From a virus, in IMG/VR virus record IMGVR_UViG_3300017783_000246, positions 1 through 21,860 of that record: DNA of 21,860 nucleotides; one strand, 5' to 3'. Numbering within the stretch: the first letter of the stretch is position 1; the number at the start of each line of letters is the position of its first letter. Of the stretch, positions 3,664 through 15,068 are shown piece after piece. Under the pieces are notes generated by a model, which saw nothing but the letters and a program-made list of their open reading frames with translations, ran no database searches and was not told where the DNA came from. Made by a program: the position numbers and the translations under genes.

Positions 3664-4089
3664 ATGAATATTAAAGAGAAAACAAAATTATCTATACAAG
3701 AACATGAAGGATATAGGCTGGAGCCGTACCGTTGTACTGAAGGATTTTTAAGCGGGGGCTGGGGCCATAAAATATTAGTCGGTGAAGAAATCCCAACAAC
3801 AAAAGAAGGTTGGGAAGAAATATTTAATAAAGACTTTGATCATGCTTGGAATCAAATGGAACAGCTCTGCGATACGCATGACTTACCAGAGAATGAAGAG
3901 ATGCGTTCTATTTTATGTGAAATGATTTTCCAACTTGGTTTTACAGGAGTATCTAAATTTAAAATGATGATCAAAGCTCTACAAGAAGGCAATATGGAAG
4001 AAGCTCATAATCAAATGAAAGATAGTAAGTGGTATATCCAAACTCCGAACAGATGTGTAGCTCTAGCTGAAAGAATGAGATACGCATGA
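3664..4089 (+). CDS. Endolysin, T4-type lysozyme (glycoside hydrolase family 24)
   Basis: 141 residues. The catalytic region reads His-Glu-Gly near residue 15, Tyr-Arg-Cys-Thr-Glu-Gly at 22-27 and Gly-Trp-Gly-His at 32-35. By alignment with T4 lysozyme, E15 is the catalytic acid, C24 takes the place of Asp20 and S30 that of Thr26. Cys at that place is common in this family; Ser for Thr is a milder change. The enzyme cuts peptidoglycan. It has no signal peptide or SAR helix, so it needs a holin, and the next gene, overlapping by four bases, is a holin candidate. Confidence 0.93.
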   Translation: MNIKEKTKLSIQEHEGYRLEPYRCTEGFLSGGWGHKILVGEEIPTTKEGWEEIFNKDFDHAWNQMEQLCDTHDLPENEEMRSILCEMIFQLGFTGVSKFKMMIKALQEGNMEEAHNQMKDSKWYIQTPNRCVALAERMRYA

Positions 4090-4472
4090 TGTGGGGAATG
4101 TTACTAAAACCTCTACTCGGTACAGTTTCAGAAGTTGCTAAAAATGTTTCAGAAACTCGTAAAGCAAAAGTAGAACAAAAAGTTACTAAAATTAAGGCGG
4201 AAACCGACCTTATGAAAAGAAGAATTTCAGGAGAATTGGAATACGACTTACAGGCTGTAAAGTCTGGAGATAATAGTTTTAAAGACGAGGCTTGGACGAT
4301 TCTTTTTATCATCATTATAGGAATGTGTTTTATCCCACCACTGCAACCATACGTCGAAAGAGGACTAGATGCTTTAGGCAGAACCCCTGATTGGCTACAA
4401 TATTCAATTTATGGAAGTATAGCTTCCTCATTTGGATTACGGGGAATGGGTAAGGTATTAGGCAAGAAGTAA
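4086..4472 (+). CDS. Holin, GTA-type 3-TM family
   Basis: 128 residues. The N-terminal 60 are helical and charged with a slightly hydrophobic start (Leu-Leu-Lys-Pro-Leu-Leu-Gly). Membrane helices lie at about 71-86 and 104-119, separated by a Pro/Glu/Arg loop. The Asp-Glu-Ala-Trp-Thr pattern before the first helix and Ala-Ser-Ser-Phe-Gly-Leu-Arg near the end fit the GTA_holin_3TM family, which releases particles by permeabilising the inner membrane for the endolysin. It starts within the last codons of the lysozyme gene and ends in TAATG, coupled to the next gene. Confidence 0.8.
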   Translation: MMWGMLLKPLLGTVSEVAKNVSETRKAKVEQKVTKIKAETDLMKRRISGELEYDLQAVKSGDNSFKDEAWTILFIIIIGMCFIPPLQPYVERGLDALGRTPDWLQYSIYGSIASSFGLRGMGKVLGKK

Positions 4473-4723
4473 TGGCTGAATATCAAGGAAAAAAAGTAAC
4501 TCTTAATAAGCCAACCCAAGGAGATATAAAAAAATTTAAGGTTTTTGTCCGAGATCCTAGTACCGGAAGGGTAAAGAAAATTAATTTCGGAGCTAAAGGA
4601 ATGTCCATTAAGAAAAATAACCCGGATAGAAAGAAAAGTTATTGCGCTAGAAGTGGTGGAATAAAGAACAAGAACAATAAGCTCTCAGCAAACTATTGGT
4701 CAAGAAGAGCTTGGAATTGCTAA
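4472..4723 (+). CDS. Small basic phage protein (DUF5754-like)
   Basis: 83 residues, strongly basic. It has Gly-Lys-Lys-Val near the start, then Lys-Lys-Ile-Asn-Phe-Gly, a Pro-Asp-Arg-Lys-Lys-Ser stretch with a following Ala-Arg, and a C-terminal Asn-Tyr-Trp-Ser-Arg-Arg-Ala-Trp. This pattern is familiar from small proteins of cyanophages and other marine phages, assigned from memory to DUF5754. No function is known. It is the first of four tiny basic genes joined head to tail. The start is coupled to the holin through TAATG. Confidence 0.75.
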   Translation: MAEYQGKKVTLNKPTQGDIKKFKVFVRDPSTGRVKKINFGAKGMSIKKNNPDRKKSYCARSGGIKNKNNKLSANYWSRRAWNC

Positions 4724-4736
4724 AGGAGAAAAAAAA

Positions 4737-5800: not shown

Positions 5801-5899
5801 TTATTTGTTAGATAAAGCCTCAATAACAAGCTTCATTACTATTAGAAAACCGCCTATCATAAATATGTGAGCGAACGTATATAGTACTAGATTTAACAT
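5801..5899 (-). CDS. 32-residue single-pass membrane protein
   Basis: The product starts Met-Leu-Asn-Leu-Val-Leu-Tyr and is hydrophobic over residues 2-27, with a short polar tail (Ser-Asn-Lys). It is one transmembrane helix. The start shares TAATG with the stop of the upstream leftward gene, and GGGGG lies about 7 bases before it, so translation is likely. It forms a two-gene operon with the 163-residue gene. Tiny membrane proteins in this accessory position are often involved in superinfection exclusion or host modification, but here that is inference only. Confidence 0.6.
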   Translation of the reverse strand: MLNLVLYTFAHIFMIGGFLIVMKLVIEALSNK

Positions 5900-6390
5900 T
5901 AATAGCCCCCATGATTTATTGTACTTGGGTGGCCATTCTCAAAAGCTTCCATAGCATAATCACGACTAGACGATTGAGATTCTAAATATTCTTCCCTAGA
6001 AATAAAATCTACATACAGATTGTACCCGCTATCAATATCTCTAGGCTTAAAATATTCGAGTAATTCGTCTTTGTGGTAACTCCACCAAAAAGAAAAACCG
6101 GTATTATACTTTTCTGGCCAACTAGATTCAGCATGATCTACATAATCATACTCTCTTCTGATAATATAAATCGGGAAGGTAAATAAAGCATATTTGAAAA
6201 AGGTTTTAATGTAGTAAGTAAGAAAACGAACATATCCATAAAACCTTCTTAAAAACTTAGGTAGTTTAAGAGTCTTAATTGTAGATAGTTCAAAAATTTT
6301 AATTGCTACAATAAAAGCATTTGTTACAGGAACTAAAGTAAAACTAAGTTTTTTGTTAAAGTATTCGTATTGTATTGGTGTTGTAAACAT
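5899..6390 (-). CDS. Unknown protein, accessory (moron-like) position
   Basis: 163 residues, rich in Tyr, Phe, Lys and Ile. Hydrophobic stretches at about 22-35 and 64-78 may be membrane-associated. The second half is soluble and acidic, with Trp-Trp-Ser-Tyr-His-Lys near residue 103 and a Ser-rich stretch before the end. No family is recognised. The ATG follows the repeated leader element directly (CGGAGAAAGAT before ATG), so the start is firm. It lies between lysis genes and integrase and is read against the late operon, where lysogenic-conversion genes often sit. Confidence 0.7.
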   Translation of the reverse strand: MFTTPIQYEYFNKKLSFTLVPVTNAFIVAIKIFELSTIKTLKLPKFLRRFYGYVRFLTYYIKTFFKYALFTFPIYIIRREYDYVDHAESSWPEKYNTGFSFWWSYHKDELLEYFKPRDIDSGYNLYVDFISREEYLESQSSSRDYAMEAFENGHPSTINHGGY

Positions 6391-6393
6391 ATC

Positions 6394-6414
6394 TTTCTCC
6401 GTTGTTTTGCTAAG
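6394..6414 (-). repeat. Leader element copy 2, ribosome-binding site of the 163-residue gene
   Basis: On the minus strand it reads AGCAAAACAACGGAGAAA, preceded by CTT, and lies 3 bases before the ATG at 6390. The GGAG inside it is the ribosome-binding site. It is identical over 21 bases to the copy at 10488. Confidence 0.85.
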
Positions 6415-6664
6415 AAGAAAGTATCAAATTTTCACAAAAAGTAACGTTTTTTTTTGACACAAATTTACACAAAACGTTCTAGAATTATTGATTATGAGGG
6501 GTAACGCATTATTACCAAGACTGTGAAACCCTTGATTTTTGGAAATAATAGCGTGAAATGTGTCTTTTTTTGACACACTATGTTTCAATATTTCTCGTTA
6601 TTTCTCAATACTTTTTTTAAAGTGTTACCTACTGTGTAATAAAAATTGACACACTTTTGACACA
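6415..6664. promoter_or_regulatory. Non-coding repeat region beside attP
   Basis: About 250 bases without a gene. It holds four TTGACACA boxes (6454, 6570, 6646, 6657; the last two form an 11-base tandem TTGACACACTT/TTGACACACTA), an inverted pair TGTGTC/GACACA around a T-run (6559-6577), GGTAA-N7-TTACC (6500-6516) and GTTACC (6624-6629). It should contain the leftward promoter for the gene starting at 6390 and may hold the integrase arm sites. I cannot point to a convincing -10/-35 pair. Confidence 0.5.
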
Positions 6665-6668
6665 CTAT
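6454..6668 (+). repeat. Four TTGACACA direct repeats, candidate integrase arm-type sites
   Basis: TTGACACA occurs at 6454-6461, 6570-6577, 6646-6653 and 6657-6664, all in the same orientation. The copies at 6570 and 6657 extend to TTGACACACTAT. They lie 250-460 bases from the tRNA/integrase junction, as expected for arm sites of a lambda-type tyrosine integrase. TTGACA also matches a -35 box, so some may be promoter parts instead. Confidence 0.5.
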
Positions 6669-6832
6669 AGAGATCTTCTAATGTAGTTGGGGAGACGTCC
6701 TTCTTCTTTGTAAGTGTGATATGCAGACACCCAATCTTTTTTGTATTCATTCTTTAAAAAGCTTACTAGAGCTTTATCTACATTTGGTTCAGTACTAAAC
6801 AGATTTATAAAAGTTTTAAAAATTTTTGACAT
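6665..6832 (-). CDS. 55-residue basic protein
   Basis: The frame runs from an ATG preceded by AAAGGAAATTGCC, a good ribosome-binding site, to a TAG inside the last TTGACACA repeat. The product is helical and basic: Ser-Lys-Ile-Phe-Lys at the start, Lys-Asn-Glu-Tyr-Lys-Lys-Asp-Trp near residue 30, and Tyr-Ile-Arg-Arg-Ser-Leu at the end. It lies between the tRNA and the repeat region, inside the probable attP arm. No family is recognised. A DNA-binding accessory or regulatory role would fit the place but is inference. Confidence 0.6.
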   Translation of the reverse strand: MSKIFKTFINLFSTEPNVDKALVSFLKNEYKKDWVSAYHTYKEEGRLPNYIRRSL

Positions 6833-6909
6833 GGCAATTTCCTTTCAAAAGATATTTTACCAGACAGTCTATTGAAATTTAGTATGTTACTTTTACAAAG
6901 GTGATGTGT

Positions 6910-6984
6910 TGGTGCTGGTGAGAAGAATCGAACTTCCTACTCCGTCCTTACCAAGGACGTACTCTACCAATGAGTTACACCAGC
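6910..6984 (-). tRNA. tRNA-Thr (anticodon GGT), complete with CCA; candidate attP core
   Basis: Read on the minus strand, a full cloverleaf forms: acceptor arms GCTGGTG/CACCAGC, D-stem ACTC/GAGT with GG in a 7-base loop, anticodon stem CGTCC/GGACG with loop TTGGTAA (anticodon GGT, Thr), a 5-base variable loop, T-stem GGAAG/CTTCT with loop TTCGATT, discriminator A and an encoded CCA. All stems pair, with one G-T. Its first base adjoins the integrase stop codon. Tyrosine integrases commonly target tRNA genes, so this is probably the attachment core, either phage-carried or formed at an integration junction. Confidence 0.93.
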
Positions 6985-7923
6985 TTATAAGTTTTTAATG
7001 ACTGAAGCTTTCCTTGTATCAACAACTTTGGCATAACGCAAAGCCATTTTCTCAGAACTCCACCCCCCTAAACTCATCAAAGTTTTTATATCAGAATTTT
7101 TTAAGACTCTTGTGGCAAACGTATGACGAAACTTATGGGGATTAGATTTTATCCCGGAGAGCTTTTCCATTCTTCTCCAAGAGCTTTTGATTCCATGTCT
7201 TGTATTATAAGTGAAGACTTTTCCTTTACCTTGATGTAGGCCCAATTCTTTTTTTAATTTAGGATTGATATAAATGTATTTATATTTTTTTGTCTTGCTC
7301 ATAAAAACGGAAATTAAATTCTCTTCATAATCAATATCTGTCCAATCTAAATTAACAGCTTCAGAAATACGACACCCGGTATAGTATAAGAATGAGATTA
7401 GTTTTCTTACTTTTCCAGAATGTCTAAGTAATATTTCAAATTCTTTTTCATTATGCCAAGTGATCTTAGTTTCATCTACAGAAAATTTATTCAATTTAAT
7501 AGGTTGAACATTTAGCTTTATCATTTGTAAGTTGATCATAGCTTGTACTAAATTAATTATTTTATTAACAGAACTATTCTTTATTCCGGGAGTTAAACAG
7601 AACTTGATATGATCACTAAAGGTTGGCTTTATAGTGTCTATGAAAGTATGACCAAAATCATCAGTTATTTTCCTGAGTTGGGTTATGATATTGATATGAA
7701 GATCTTTTACATCAATGTAGTCTTCTAAAGACTCTTGTAAAGTTGGCCAATGTTTCTTCTCACCAGCCAACTTATCGTAATATAAGTTTTCAATTCTTTT
7801 TAATACTATCTCAGCTTCTTTTTTGCCTTTGCAACCTGTGGATTGGCGAATGCGTTTTCCGCCAATGGTTGTTCCTTCGATTTGCCAATAGGAGCTTTTT
7901 TCTCTCTTTTTGAGTTTAAGCAT
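6985..7923 (-). CDS. int: Tyrosine-type site-specific integrase
   Basis: 312 residues. The N-terminal part (1-60) is the arm-binding/AP2-like domain with Ser-Tyr-Trp and Gly-Lys-Arg-Ile-Arg-Gln-Ser-Thr-Gly. The core-binding domain is at about 65-150 and the catalytic domain follows. Catalytic residues are visible: R185 (Thr-Gly-Cys-Arg), K210 as the probable beta-turn Lys, H263 and R266 (His-Lys-Phe-Arg), W288 in the His/Trp place, and the nucleophile Y297 (Leu-Arg-Tyr). It inserts and, with an excisionase, removes the phage genome. The stop abuts a tRNA-Thr, its likely target. Its start lies 118 bases inside the upstream excisionase-like gene. Confidence 0.95.
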   Translation of the reverse strand: MLKLKKREKSSYWQIEGTTIGGKRIRQSTGCKGKKEAEIVLKRIENLYYDKLAGEKKHWPTLQESLEDYIDVKDLHINIITQLRKITDDFGHTFIDTIKPTFSDHIKFCLTPGIKNSSVNKIINLVQAMINLQMIKLNVQPIKLNKFSVDETKITWHNEKEFEILLRHSGKVRKLISFLYYTGCRISEAVNLDWTDIDYEENLISVFMSKTKKYKYIYINPKLKKELGLHQGKGKVFTYNTRHGIKSSWRRMEKLSGIKSNPHKFRHTFATRVLKNSDIKTLMSLGGWSSEKMALRYAKVVDTRKASVIKNL

Positions 7924-8105
7924 TCTATTATCTTGTCTATATGACCTTGTGAAAATCTCAAGCGAAAAGGTACCCGCACGAAGAACTGTTCTTGTGGATA
8001 TTCTTCCTTCAATGTATTTAGCATTGAATAAACAGTCTTTTTAGAGACACCAAAGCTATTAGCTACGTCAGTGATAGTAAAAAGAAAATTAGATTGTTGA
8101 GACAT
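7806..8105 (-). CDS. Excisionase-like helix-turn-helix protein
   Basis: 99 residues. The HTH is at about 10-32 (Phe-Thr-Ile-Thr-Asp-Val-Ala-Asn-Ser-Phe-Gly-Val-Ser-Lys-Lys-Thr-Val-Tyr), of the MerR/excisionase type. A wing-like segment (Phe-Arg-Leu-Arg-Phe) and a Lys-rich tail follow. Position directly before int, with a 118-base overlap, supports an excisionase or directionality factor; a regulator of int is the alternative. The ATG shares TGATG with the preceding stop. A TTG one codon upstream lies closer to the GGGGG ribosome-binding site and could be used instead. Confidence 0.7.
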   Translation of the reverse strand: MSQQSNFLFTITDVANSFGVSKKTVYSMLNTLKEEYPQEQFFVRVPFRLRFSQGHIDKIIECLNSKREKKAPIGKSKEQPLAENAFANPQVAKAKKKLR

Positions 8106-8458
8106 CAATACAATTTACCCCCTGATACTGCTAGTTTGTTTAATGAGAATTGAGCCATAAGCTTATATTCTAAAGTTTTCATATCTATAGAAAGACTATT
8201 TGCTTCTTCTTTTGCTTTTTTAGTCTGCTCTGTAGCTATTTTATAGTCTTCAGAAGCTAACGCTTGTATCTCAGATTGAGAAACATTATGGCCACCACCA
8301 ATCAAATCTTTTTTCTTTTCATTAAAAATTATTTTCATGGACTGTTCTTTAAACCAAGCTTCAGCATTTTTTGTAGCATGTCTTTGTCCAGCTTCATGAT
8401 ATTTATAAATCATCTTATCAATATCACTCCCTAGCTCTAACAGCTCTTGCCTATTCAT
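8105..8458 (-). CDS. Helical protein of unknown function
   Basis: 117 residues, almost all alpha-helical and highly charged, with a His/Gly-rich short loop (Gly-Gly-Gly-His-Asn) near residue 55 and a C-terminal Gly-Gly-Lys-Leu-Tyr. Small helical proteins of this kind often stand next to RecB-type nucleases and SSB-like genes in phage recombination operons, so a recombination accessory role is possible. No domain is recognised. It overlaps the upstream gene by 8 bases and is joined to the excisionase-like gene through TGATG. Confidence 0.7.
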   Translation of the reverse strand: MNRQELLELGSDIDKMIYKYHEAGQRHATKNAEAWFKEQSMKIIFNEKKKDLIGGGHNVSQSEIQALASEDYKIATEQTKKAKEEANSLSIDMKTLEYKLMAQFSLNKLAVSGGKLY

Positions 8459-10689: not shown

Positions 10690-11439
10690 TTAAGAATGGT
10701 CAGGCTGATTATAAACCTGATCGTGTAAAGAATTTGTTCTTGATGACTTAAATGTATTCGGTGCAAAAATAGCTTCTACAGCAAACCATTCAATTACATC
10801 TTTTATATCTACTTTGACTTCGGTTTTTGTAACCTCATCAAGACATGAAACTATTTTTTTTTCAGGATAAAATTTAACATTACAAAATACAAATATCTCT
10901 TTACTTTCTTTATTATTTTTAGTCTTGCATTTATATTTTAATATTGAGTAAAGATACTGATTACTTACGGATTCCGGGTTTTTTTTGAAATTATTAGTGG
11001 GGTCAAATAAACATTGATAATTATAGATTGGATCGTGTCTAACTATAATACAGTTATATCCTCTCCAAATATTTGATCTTAAAACTGTATTTGGATCAGA
11101 CATTCTAGGGGCATAAATCATGCCATATTCGTTCGATATTCCTACTACAGGAACTGTAAGTGTTGTATCAAATTGCCTATTTAAAAGACTACTTCGAGAA
11201 GAATGATAGATATCAACATTAAAATATCTTAATAATTTATTTAGGGATTCTACTGAAATATCACTTTGAGTATGTATAAACTTAGATACTACTGAAGGTG
11301 ATAAGCCAACAATTTTGCAAATCTGGTTCCATGATTTTCGAGAGTCATGTTGTTTTGATACTAAGATCTGAATTAATTTTTTTTTACCGTTCACTATATC
11401 CCCTAAATAATTATCCCATAAAGTTACACTATTTCTCAT
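10690..11439 (-). CDS. CI-type repressor (HTH plus S24-like domain lacking clear protease residues)
   Basis: 249 residues from the ATG; a TTG three codons upstream is the alternative, and neither has a strong ribosome-binding site. The HTH is at about 36-72 (Trp-Asn-Gln-Ile-Cys-Lys-Ile-Val-Gly-Leu-Ser-Pro-Ser-Val-Val-Ser-Lys-Phe). After a linker, Val-Pro-Val-Val-Gly begins a domain resembling the C-terminal part of CI/LexA-type repressors, but the usual catalytic Ser context and later Lys are not evident. It lies between divergent operons, so it most likely holds lysogeny. How it would be inactivated is unclear. Confidence 0.8.
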   Translation of the reverse strand: MRNSVTLWDNYLGDIVNGKKKLIQILVSKQHDSRKSWNQICKIVGLSPSVVSKFIHTQSDISVESLNKLLRYFNVDIYHSSRSSLLNRQFDTTLTVPVVGISNEYGMIYAPRMSDPNTVLRSNIWRGYNCIIVRHDPIYNYQCLFDPTNNFKKNPESVSNQYLYSILKYKCKTKNNKESKEIFVFCNVKFYPEKKIVSCLDEVTKTEVKVDIKDVIEWFAVEAIFAPNTFKSSRTNSLHDQVYNQPDHS

Positions 11440-11594
11440 AGCGTTCAACCATTTCTTTGTAGAAAAATTAAGCTATTGAAAAAAAAATCAAAATAAATTT
11501 AATAAAATCATGGAAAGCAAGTTACCCAATTTATCCTCCGCTAGCTTTCCATTATTACGCTTAATGTCATGTCGTCCGAAAGGGGAGACACCTA
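11440..11594. promoter_or_regulatory. Divergent control region with candidate rightward promoter
   Basis: This region separates the leftward repressor from the rightward early genes. TTGAAA (11476-11481), a 16-base spacer and TTTAAT (11498-11503) form the best rightward promoter in the window (5 of 6 matches in each box). The expected transcript start falls at the hairpin beginning at 11510. The repressor's own leftward promoter should also be here but is not clear. AGGGGAG near 11582-11587 is the ribosome-binding site for the TTG start at 11595. Confidence 0.5.
11510..11552. repeat. 9-bp perfect inverted repeat downstream of the rightward promoter
   Basis: ATGGAAAGC (11510-11518) and GCTTTCCAT (11544-11552) flank a 25-base loop that contains GTTACC. 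It would form a hairpin at the very start of the rightward transcript, or two half-sites of an operator. No T-run follows, so it is not a standard terminator. Confidence 0.6.
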
Positions 11595-14840: not shown

Positions 14841-15068
14841 ATGGCATATAACGGCATACAAATTATTAATTGGAATAGACAAGAAGAACAAAAGTATAAG
14901 GTTTGTTGTAAATGTGGGTCATGGGGATCATTTGCATTAAAAACACTACATGGGAGTTACTATTTCTTATGTGGTAAACACTATTTTGAGGCAAAAAATG
15001 ACAAAAAAGACCAAAACAGGCAAAAAAAAATCGACGACCAAAAAAGCTCCTATGGACTTTTTCGGTGA
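14841..15068 (+). CDS. Small zinc-finger-like protein
   Basis: 75 residues. C22-x2-C25 and C44-x2-H47 can bind one zinc (with C23 as an extra Cys), separated by an aromatic, Ser/Gly-rich segment. A Lys/Asp/Gln-rich helical tail follows, 71 bases of which overlap the next gene in another frame. The first gene after the late control region may regulate late transcription or belong to packaging. No close family is recognised. Confidence 0.65.
   Translation: MAYNGIQIINWNRQEEQKYKVCCKCGSWGSFALKTLHGSYYFLCGKHYFEAKNDKKDQNRQKKIDDQKSSYGLFR

Follow-up and report, generated by a model that had tools for sequence, protein, structure and literature searches.

tRNA genes are common targets of tyrosine integrases. 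In the process named 'tRNA-dependent lysogeny' (Guerrero-Bustamante and Hatfull 2024), integration through a short core destroys a host tRNA gene, and a tRNA encoded by the phage replaces it. According to the available part of PMC10865867, this has been proven for mycobacteriophages, in which the core is about 10 bp long, the host gene is not reconstructed and the phage tRNA is needed. The Roseobacter phage CRP-810 (OR671924) carries a tRNA-Thr, and PCR results in the available text of PMC11288001 show its integration mid-gene in a host tRNA-Thr through a 13-bp core; the terms 'complement', 'disrupt' and 'tRNA-dependent' are absent from the main text of that paper. Prophage-related sequences of Sinorhizobium meliloti are described, in the portion of PMC11476347 at hand, as supplying their own tRNA in place of the isoacceptor gene that they inactivate, and tRNA-Thr(GGU) is given there as one integration hot spot. 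In the accessible excerpt of PMC12429752, the tRNA-dependent mechanism is reported as not seen in phiLM21-like prophages. A full-text literature search for 'tRNA-dependent lysogeny' returned no title on SAR11 or pelagiphages, and one on a lytic Vibrio phage.

The locus described here comes from an IMG/VR virus record with a linear classification and a length of 21,860 bases; the record was analysed as a whole and is referred to as the window. With a probability of roughly 80%, this phage practises tRNA-dependent lysogeny, its complete tRNA-Thr(GGT) being a replacement for a host tRNA-Thr(GGT) gene broken at a separate attP core. The integrase (int) would recombine the short core CTTGGTAAT with the anticodon loop of the host gene. 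Because no tRNA 3' half lies beside the core, integration would split that gene and neither junction would rebuild it; the intact tRNA-Thr(GGT) behind int would then stand in for the lost host tRNA, and only cells expressing the phage tRNA would survive as lysogens. Such expression could perhaps come about by read-through from int followed by RNase P cleavage. The scheme supposes that the window integrase uses this core, that the host tRNA-Thr(GGT) gene is attB and integration takes place there, that the host has only this one copy and cannot do without it, and that lysogens express the phage tRNA; neither a genome of the host nor an integrated copy turned up, attB was thus not seen, and we infer the mechanism from the arrangement of the locus and its relatives. 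It would give a concrete reason for the presence of a single complete tRNA in a small temperate phage. If true, an essential host gene can be broken and the host stays alive only while the prophage remains, so that prophage and host would be locked together.

The tRNA-Thr(GGT) gene and its neighbourhood

The tRNA-Thr(GGT) is the sole tRNA found by ARAGORN in the window, and Rfam model RF00005 matches it with E 1.5e-15; it is the complete gene with CCA that an earlier note on this sequence had described. Its 3' end is at 6910 and its 5' end at 6984, the base directly after the int stop codon (6985-6987), as the note had also observed. The span of 6910-6990 that had been assigned to the tRNA holds for 6910-6984, while 6985-6990 belongs to int. 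The gene is complete and under selection as a tRNA: among 18 distinct homologues, 16 of them Thr and 2 Val, 378 of 378 paired cloverleaf cells are standard, with 45 two-sided changes among them, spread over 10 of the 21 pairs and affecting the acceptor and anticodon stems among others. The covariation score was reached by 0 of 500 shuffles, a control that counts sequences and not events. Covariation across the stems indicates that the 5' half is under constraint too, unlike in an attP made of a 3' fragment, and it supports the reading, already offered in the note, of a working tRNA gene encoded by the phage. A sigma-70 promoter scan for the tRNA over 6380-7400 gave no clear promoter and nothing above chance.

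Table 1. Features of the integrase locus and of one distant site, with positions in the window.
Feature	Position	Strand	Basis
Conserved ORF, 163 aa, far side of attP	5899..6390	-	homologue at same place in L041
Predicted attP region, intergenic stretch bounded by the small and the 163-aa ORF	6391..6664	.	conserved core and arm-like repeats
Predicted P'-arm pair, TGTGTAAATT TGTGTCA	6455..6471	-	sequence reading; comparable pairs in relatives
Predicted attP core CTTGGTAAT	6511..6519	-	homologous place in 13/13 contigs
Predicted P-arm pair, TGTGTCA N4 TGTGTCA, 11 bp apart	6647..6664	-	1 match vs 0.02 expected in shuffles; comparable in relatives
Small ORF, 55 aa, in the tRNA-attP interval	6665..6832	-	homologues at same place in relatives
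Complete tRNA-Thr(GGT), encoded CCA, 75 nt	6910..6984	-	ARAGORN; RF00005; covariation, 18 distinct homologues
Tyrosine integrase (int), 312 aa, stop codon abutting tRNA	6985..7923	-	PF00589 E 1.2e-21; phrog_1 integrase E 1.4e-41
Small helix-turn-helix protein overlapping int start, candidate excisionase	7806..8108	-	phrog_66 E 2.7e-4; HTH_17 below cut-off
Orthologue of gene flanked by tRNA-Thr or tRNA-Val in related phages	14841..15068	+	orthology

Neither the 55-aa nor the 163-aa ORF has a Pfam match, and there is no tRNA beside the gene at 14841..15068, unlike in the related phages. A 252-aa protein encoded at 10690-11448 (minus strand), with a weak HTH_3 match just below the cut-off, is a candidate repressor of the lysogenic operon. 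The closest isolate for the portal protein is Pelagibacter phage HTVC106P (39%), and this similarity may be taken only as a hint to the host.

A scan of viral contigs with the window int yielded 25 integrase relatives. All 11 with 55-99% int identity (L002-L012) carry a complete tRNA-Thr(GGT), starting 4-5 nt past the last matched int base, so that the adjacency of int and tRNA is more than chance; the 14 relatives below 35% identity have no complete tRNA within the stretches examined. One further contig, L041 (int 49% identical), has the same layout as the window and, together with the window and L002-L012, makes up the set of 13 window-type contigs considered below. In the relatives phage sequence continues after the tRNA. 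Four of them carry a 56-aa ORF directly after the CCA, between the tRNA and the usual small ORF (L006 at 4001-4171; L007, L008 and L010); that this sequence might be host DNA was rejected, as the short inserted ORF is followed by the usual phage ORF. In L056/L011, the window-type integrase is broken by frameshift or stops (one TAG, one TAA), either through decay or through sequencing error, with tRNA and core intact.

A predicted attP apart from the tRNA

As read from the sequence, the likely attP occupies about 6391-6664 and is separate from the tRNA. Positions 6512-6518 read TTGGTAA, the exact 7-nt anticodon loop of tRNA-Thr(GGT), and the predicted core lies some 400 nt beyond the tRNA. When the motif CTTGGTAAG was searched with at most one mismatch up to 1.5 kb on each side, a second copy of the motif was found at the homologous place in all 13 window-type contigs. 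TTGGTAA is also the only 7-mer common to seven distinct attP regions, against 0 shared in 300 shuffles, although these regions are kin and the shuffle therefore overstates the significance; the flanks nevertheless differ strongly in L056 and L041. Taken by itself, the window gives the core no significance: its 7-mer occurs in 185 of 2000 shuffles, and 124 of 500 attain the longest match between tRNA and attP (8 nt), so that the weight rests on the conserved place of the core. The longest block shared by the tRNA and its neighbouring region covers the anticodon loop in 8/8 phages tested, although 2 to 182 of 500 shuffles reach each of these lengths taken alone. On both sides of the core, in the window and its relatives, stand paired direct repeats with a spacing of about 11 bp, and their letters, compared by eye, vary between contigs similarly on the two sides, as is expected of arm-type integrase sites. 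At 6559-6577, within the predicted attP, there is also a terminator-like inverted repeat, TGTGTCTTTTTTTGACACA, that contains the arm-site motif.

No T-arm or acceptor lies beside the core at 6511-6519, where a 3'-half block of 30-50 bp is absent, and the only T-arm ending in CCA in a scan of the window is that of the tRNA itself. Junctions were built in silico at the core, with the phage tRNA, cut at TTGGTAA, used as a stand-in for the host gene. A tRNA was present in 0 of 18 such junctions from nine phages (14 from seven window-type phages and four from L227 and L234), and it was rebuilt in 5/5 canonical control phages with a partial tRNA in attP (L155, L169, L177, L202 and L208). The exact 46-nt 3' half of the tRNA had no match in the genomes of sequenced species, among which the true host may be absent, nor had a degenerate version with N at phage-variable positions, from which the host gene may still differ; this makes it less likely that a sequenced host shares a long identity block. 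The earlier note had held that the lack of a bacterial tRNA-Thr with a long identical block would argue for a stand-alone phage tRNA and another attP, and both were found. What escaped it is that working tRNA and other attP appear to belong together, the predicted core being the anticodon loop of the same isotype.

Distribution of the tRNA and exchange of isotypes

The degenerate 3'-half pattern matched 30 viral contigs. Each of them has a complete tRNA, which stands behind int in 12 and beside terminase genes on the other strand in 18. L138 is a nineteenth contig with tRNA-Thr at the terminase site, and tRNA-Val(GAC) is found there in four (L124, L126, L139 and L141). Identical 75-nt tRNAs occur behind int in L033 and at the terminase site in L058, so that within this phage family the tRNA forms a module of its own. 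In L035 (9842-9961, terminase site), the tRNA 5' end directly adjoins a start codon belonging to an opposite-strand gene, so that a separate leader would have no space. The tRNA-Val of the four contigs and the tRNA-Thr of L035 and L038, at the same site, have near-identical D and T arms. Most of their differences are in the acceptor pairs and the anticodon arm, as though a single scaffold had switched identity.

Among 43 contigs of at least 10 kb, the tRNA is present in 11 of 12 with PF00589 and in 7 of 31 without (p 5e-5), a set that was partly chosen for the tRNA. The fairer subset, obtained by terminase search, gives 6/6 with integrase against 6/30 without (p 0.0005); the integrase-free G029 came from the tRNA pattern scan and lies outside this subset. 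Nine integrase-free contigs of 25-35 kb have neither the tRNA (0/9) nor a resolvase-type recombinase (PF00239). The contigs in these counts are all classed linear and are often fragments, so the absences are weak.

More distant members of the integrase family were surveyed at 69 loci (23-30% int identity). A 3' fragment of tRNA-Thr(GGT), starting from the anticodon loop, follows int on the same strand at 35 of these loci and is on the other strand at three; eight have fragments of other kinds, 22 have neither tRNA nor fragment, and at one, L192, an opposite-strand tRNA-Thr is complete and another core is found at a distance of 86 nt. As the 3' fragments begin at the anticodon loop, the integrase family targets the tRNA-Thr anticodon loop. 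A quick tree was built from 40 integrases, of which 29 belong to the 69 and 11 are others. One of its clades holds the window type (support 99), a second CRP-810 and L192 alongside partial forms (support 100), and a third L061, L222 and L223 (support 99); its deep branches are weak (77). At least two origins of the complete-tRNA layout, perhaps three, are indicated by these sequences.

The pairing of tRNA and core extends to other isotypes. In the L223 type (seven contigs, L227-L233, L227 being the L223 contig), a tRNA-Val(GAC) with the loop TCGACAC stands close behind int, and a second TCGACAC follows 96 nt further on. L234, whose int is 60% identical to the L223 type, carries a tRNA-Asp(GTC) with the loop CTGTCAC and, at the aligned place, the core CTGTCAC, which occurs twice in this contig. 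Where the tRNA is adjacent to int, the isotype matches the core in 13/13 Thr, 7/7 Val and 1/1 Asp cases. The tRNA-Val(GAC) of L223 (1657-1731) and L227-L233 has C at position 33 and not the near-universal U; the attP core has the same C33, and the host tRNA may share it. L061 and L062 have another integrase type and the core ATTGGTAAT, which is inverted in L061: within 5990-6215 of L061 and 1372-1597 of L062 the core reads ATTACCAAT and ATTGGTAAT, respectively, the flanks are otherwise near-identical and the integrases closely similar. Such an inversion would reverse the orientation of the prophage. A close relative of both, L054, has tRNA-Thr, and L222 (the same contig as L141, with tRNA-Val) has TCGACAC at the place aligned to the L061/L062 core. 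A misfit is seen in the L141-type tRNA-Val, whose loop is TTGACAT as against the core TCGACAC, and L225 and L226, with the core TCGACAC, have no tRNA in the stretches examined. The chances are about even that core and tRNA form a matched pair exchanged together (Thr, Val, Asp), such that a swap of about 7 bp and the spare tRNA would retarget the phage, and that canonical systems of a single integrase family gave rise to this switching at least twice. Because core and isotype change as a pair in homologous attP regions, sequence comparison can test how these systems originated.

Alternative readings and described systems

One alternative, which is unlikely, makes the tRNA itself the attP, so that crossover would fall in the anticodon loop and each end of the prophage would bear a chimeric but complete tRNA gene. 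It fits the usual choice of tRNA genes by tyrosine integrases, and a counter-point to the preferred reading is that the tRNA sits where 35 of the 69 distant family members keep, in the same geometry and on the same strand, their canonical 3' tRNA-Thr(GGT) fragment. This site would, on the other hand, leave unexplained the separate core of the window-type contigs, which is present in 13/13 and has paired repeats on both sides, and the Val- and Asp-type relatives that also pair a complete tRNA with a separate core; nor does it suit a 3' half, exact or degenerate, with 0 matches in sequenced-species genomes, or an identical tRNA-Thr away from any integrase (L058 vs L033). The separate conserved core with its arm-like repeats, and the unmatched 3' half, likewise tell against the suggestion in the earlier note that a full copy in attP restores the whole host gene. 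The tRNA might also be a stand-alone helper of lytic growth, supplying codons or replacing host tRNAs that host or phage has degraded, and lying beside int by chance. This is a frequent explanation for phage tRNAs in the available part of PMC10865867, and the same tRNA does stand beside terminase genes, away from integrase, in 19 related contigs; it is, however, very unlikely, as the tRNA tracks the integrase (6/6 vs 6/30, and 0/9 in integrase-free contigs of 25-35 kb) and its isotype equals that of the core in window-type (Thr), L223-type (Val) and L234 (Asp) phages.

The least credible reading, to be given hardly any weight, is the other one raised in the note, namely that the window is an assembled integration junction with the tRNA as host gene. 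A tRNA abutting int does look like the attR of a prophage integrated in a tRNA, but past the tRNA come phage genes, endolysin and metallophosphoesterase among them, the small phage ORF after it has homologues in relatives, where phage sequence also continues, and its 3' half matches no sequenced-species genome searched. Past int come the terminase, portal and major head genes; phage genes stand on both sides of tRNA and int, and the window is thus the free (attP) form. Replacement of a host tRNA broken at a separate core is the most likely reading.

So read, the locus would represent a known type of mechanism in new phages, apparently widespread in marine phages, and would extend tRNA-dependent lysogeny, with three isotypes, to marine phages that are uncultured. 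HTVC019P (L221) has at about 4710-4730, after int, the sequence AGGATTTGCAATCCT, which resembles a tRNA-Cys(GCA) anticodon arm and is perhaps another short-core attP, the isotype being called by reading. Within the same integrase family, and with the same target loop, the five canonical control phages carry a 3' half in attP and rebuild the tRNA, unlike the window phage. CRP-810 resembles the window in having a complete tRNA-Thr beside int and a separate core, CCCTTGGTAAGGG, but its int is only 27% identical, its tRNA is convergent with int, its core is placed 5' of the tRNA and its genome is larger (57.7 kb). The alphaproteobacterial elements of Sinorhizobium meliloti share the layout with a replacement tRNA and differ, in the portion of PMC11476347 at hand, in being known in the integrated state and in a soil bacterium. 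A close likeness in layout is set out in the available text of PMC10865867 for the actinobacteriophages Fionnbharth, Gaia and others, which have a tyrosine integrase, a short core in a tRNA gene without reconstruction, a complete cognate phage tRNA and putative arm sites around the core. The window phage is an unrelated marine phage, and the isotypes seen here are Thr(GGT), Val(GAC) and Asp(GTC), as against Lys, Ile2 and Leu among tRNA-dependent rows in the table of that paper; the Fionnbharth tRNA overlaps another gene, whereas the tRNA of the window abuts the int stop codon.
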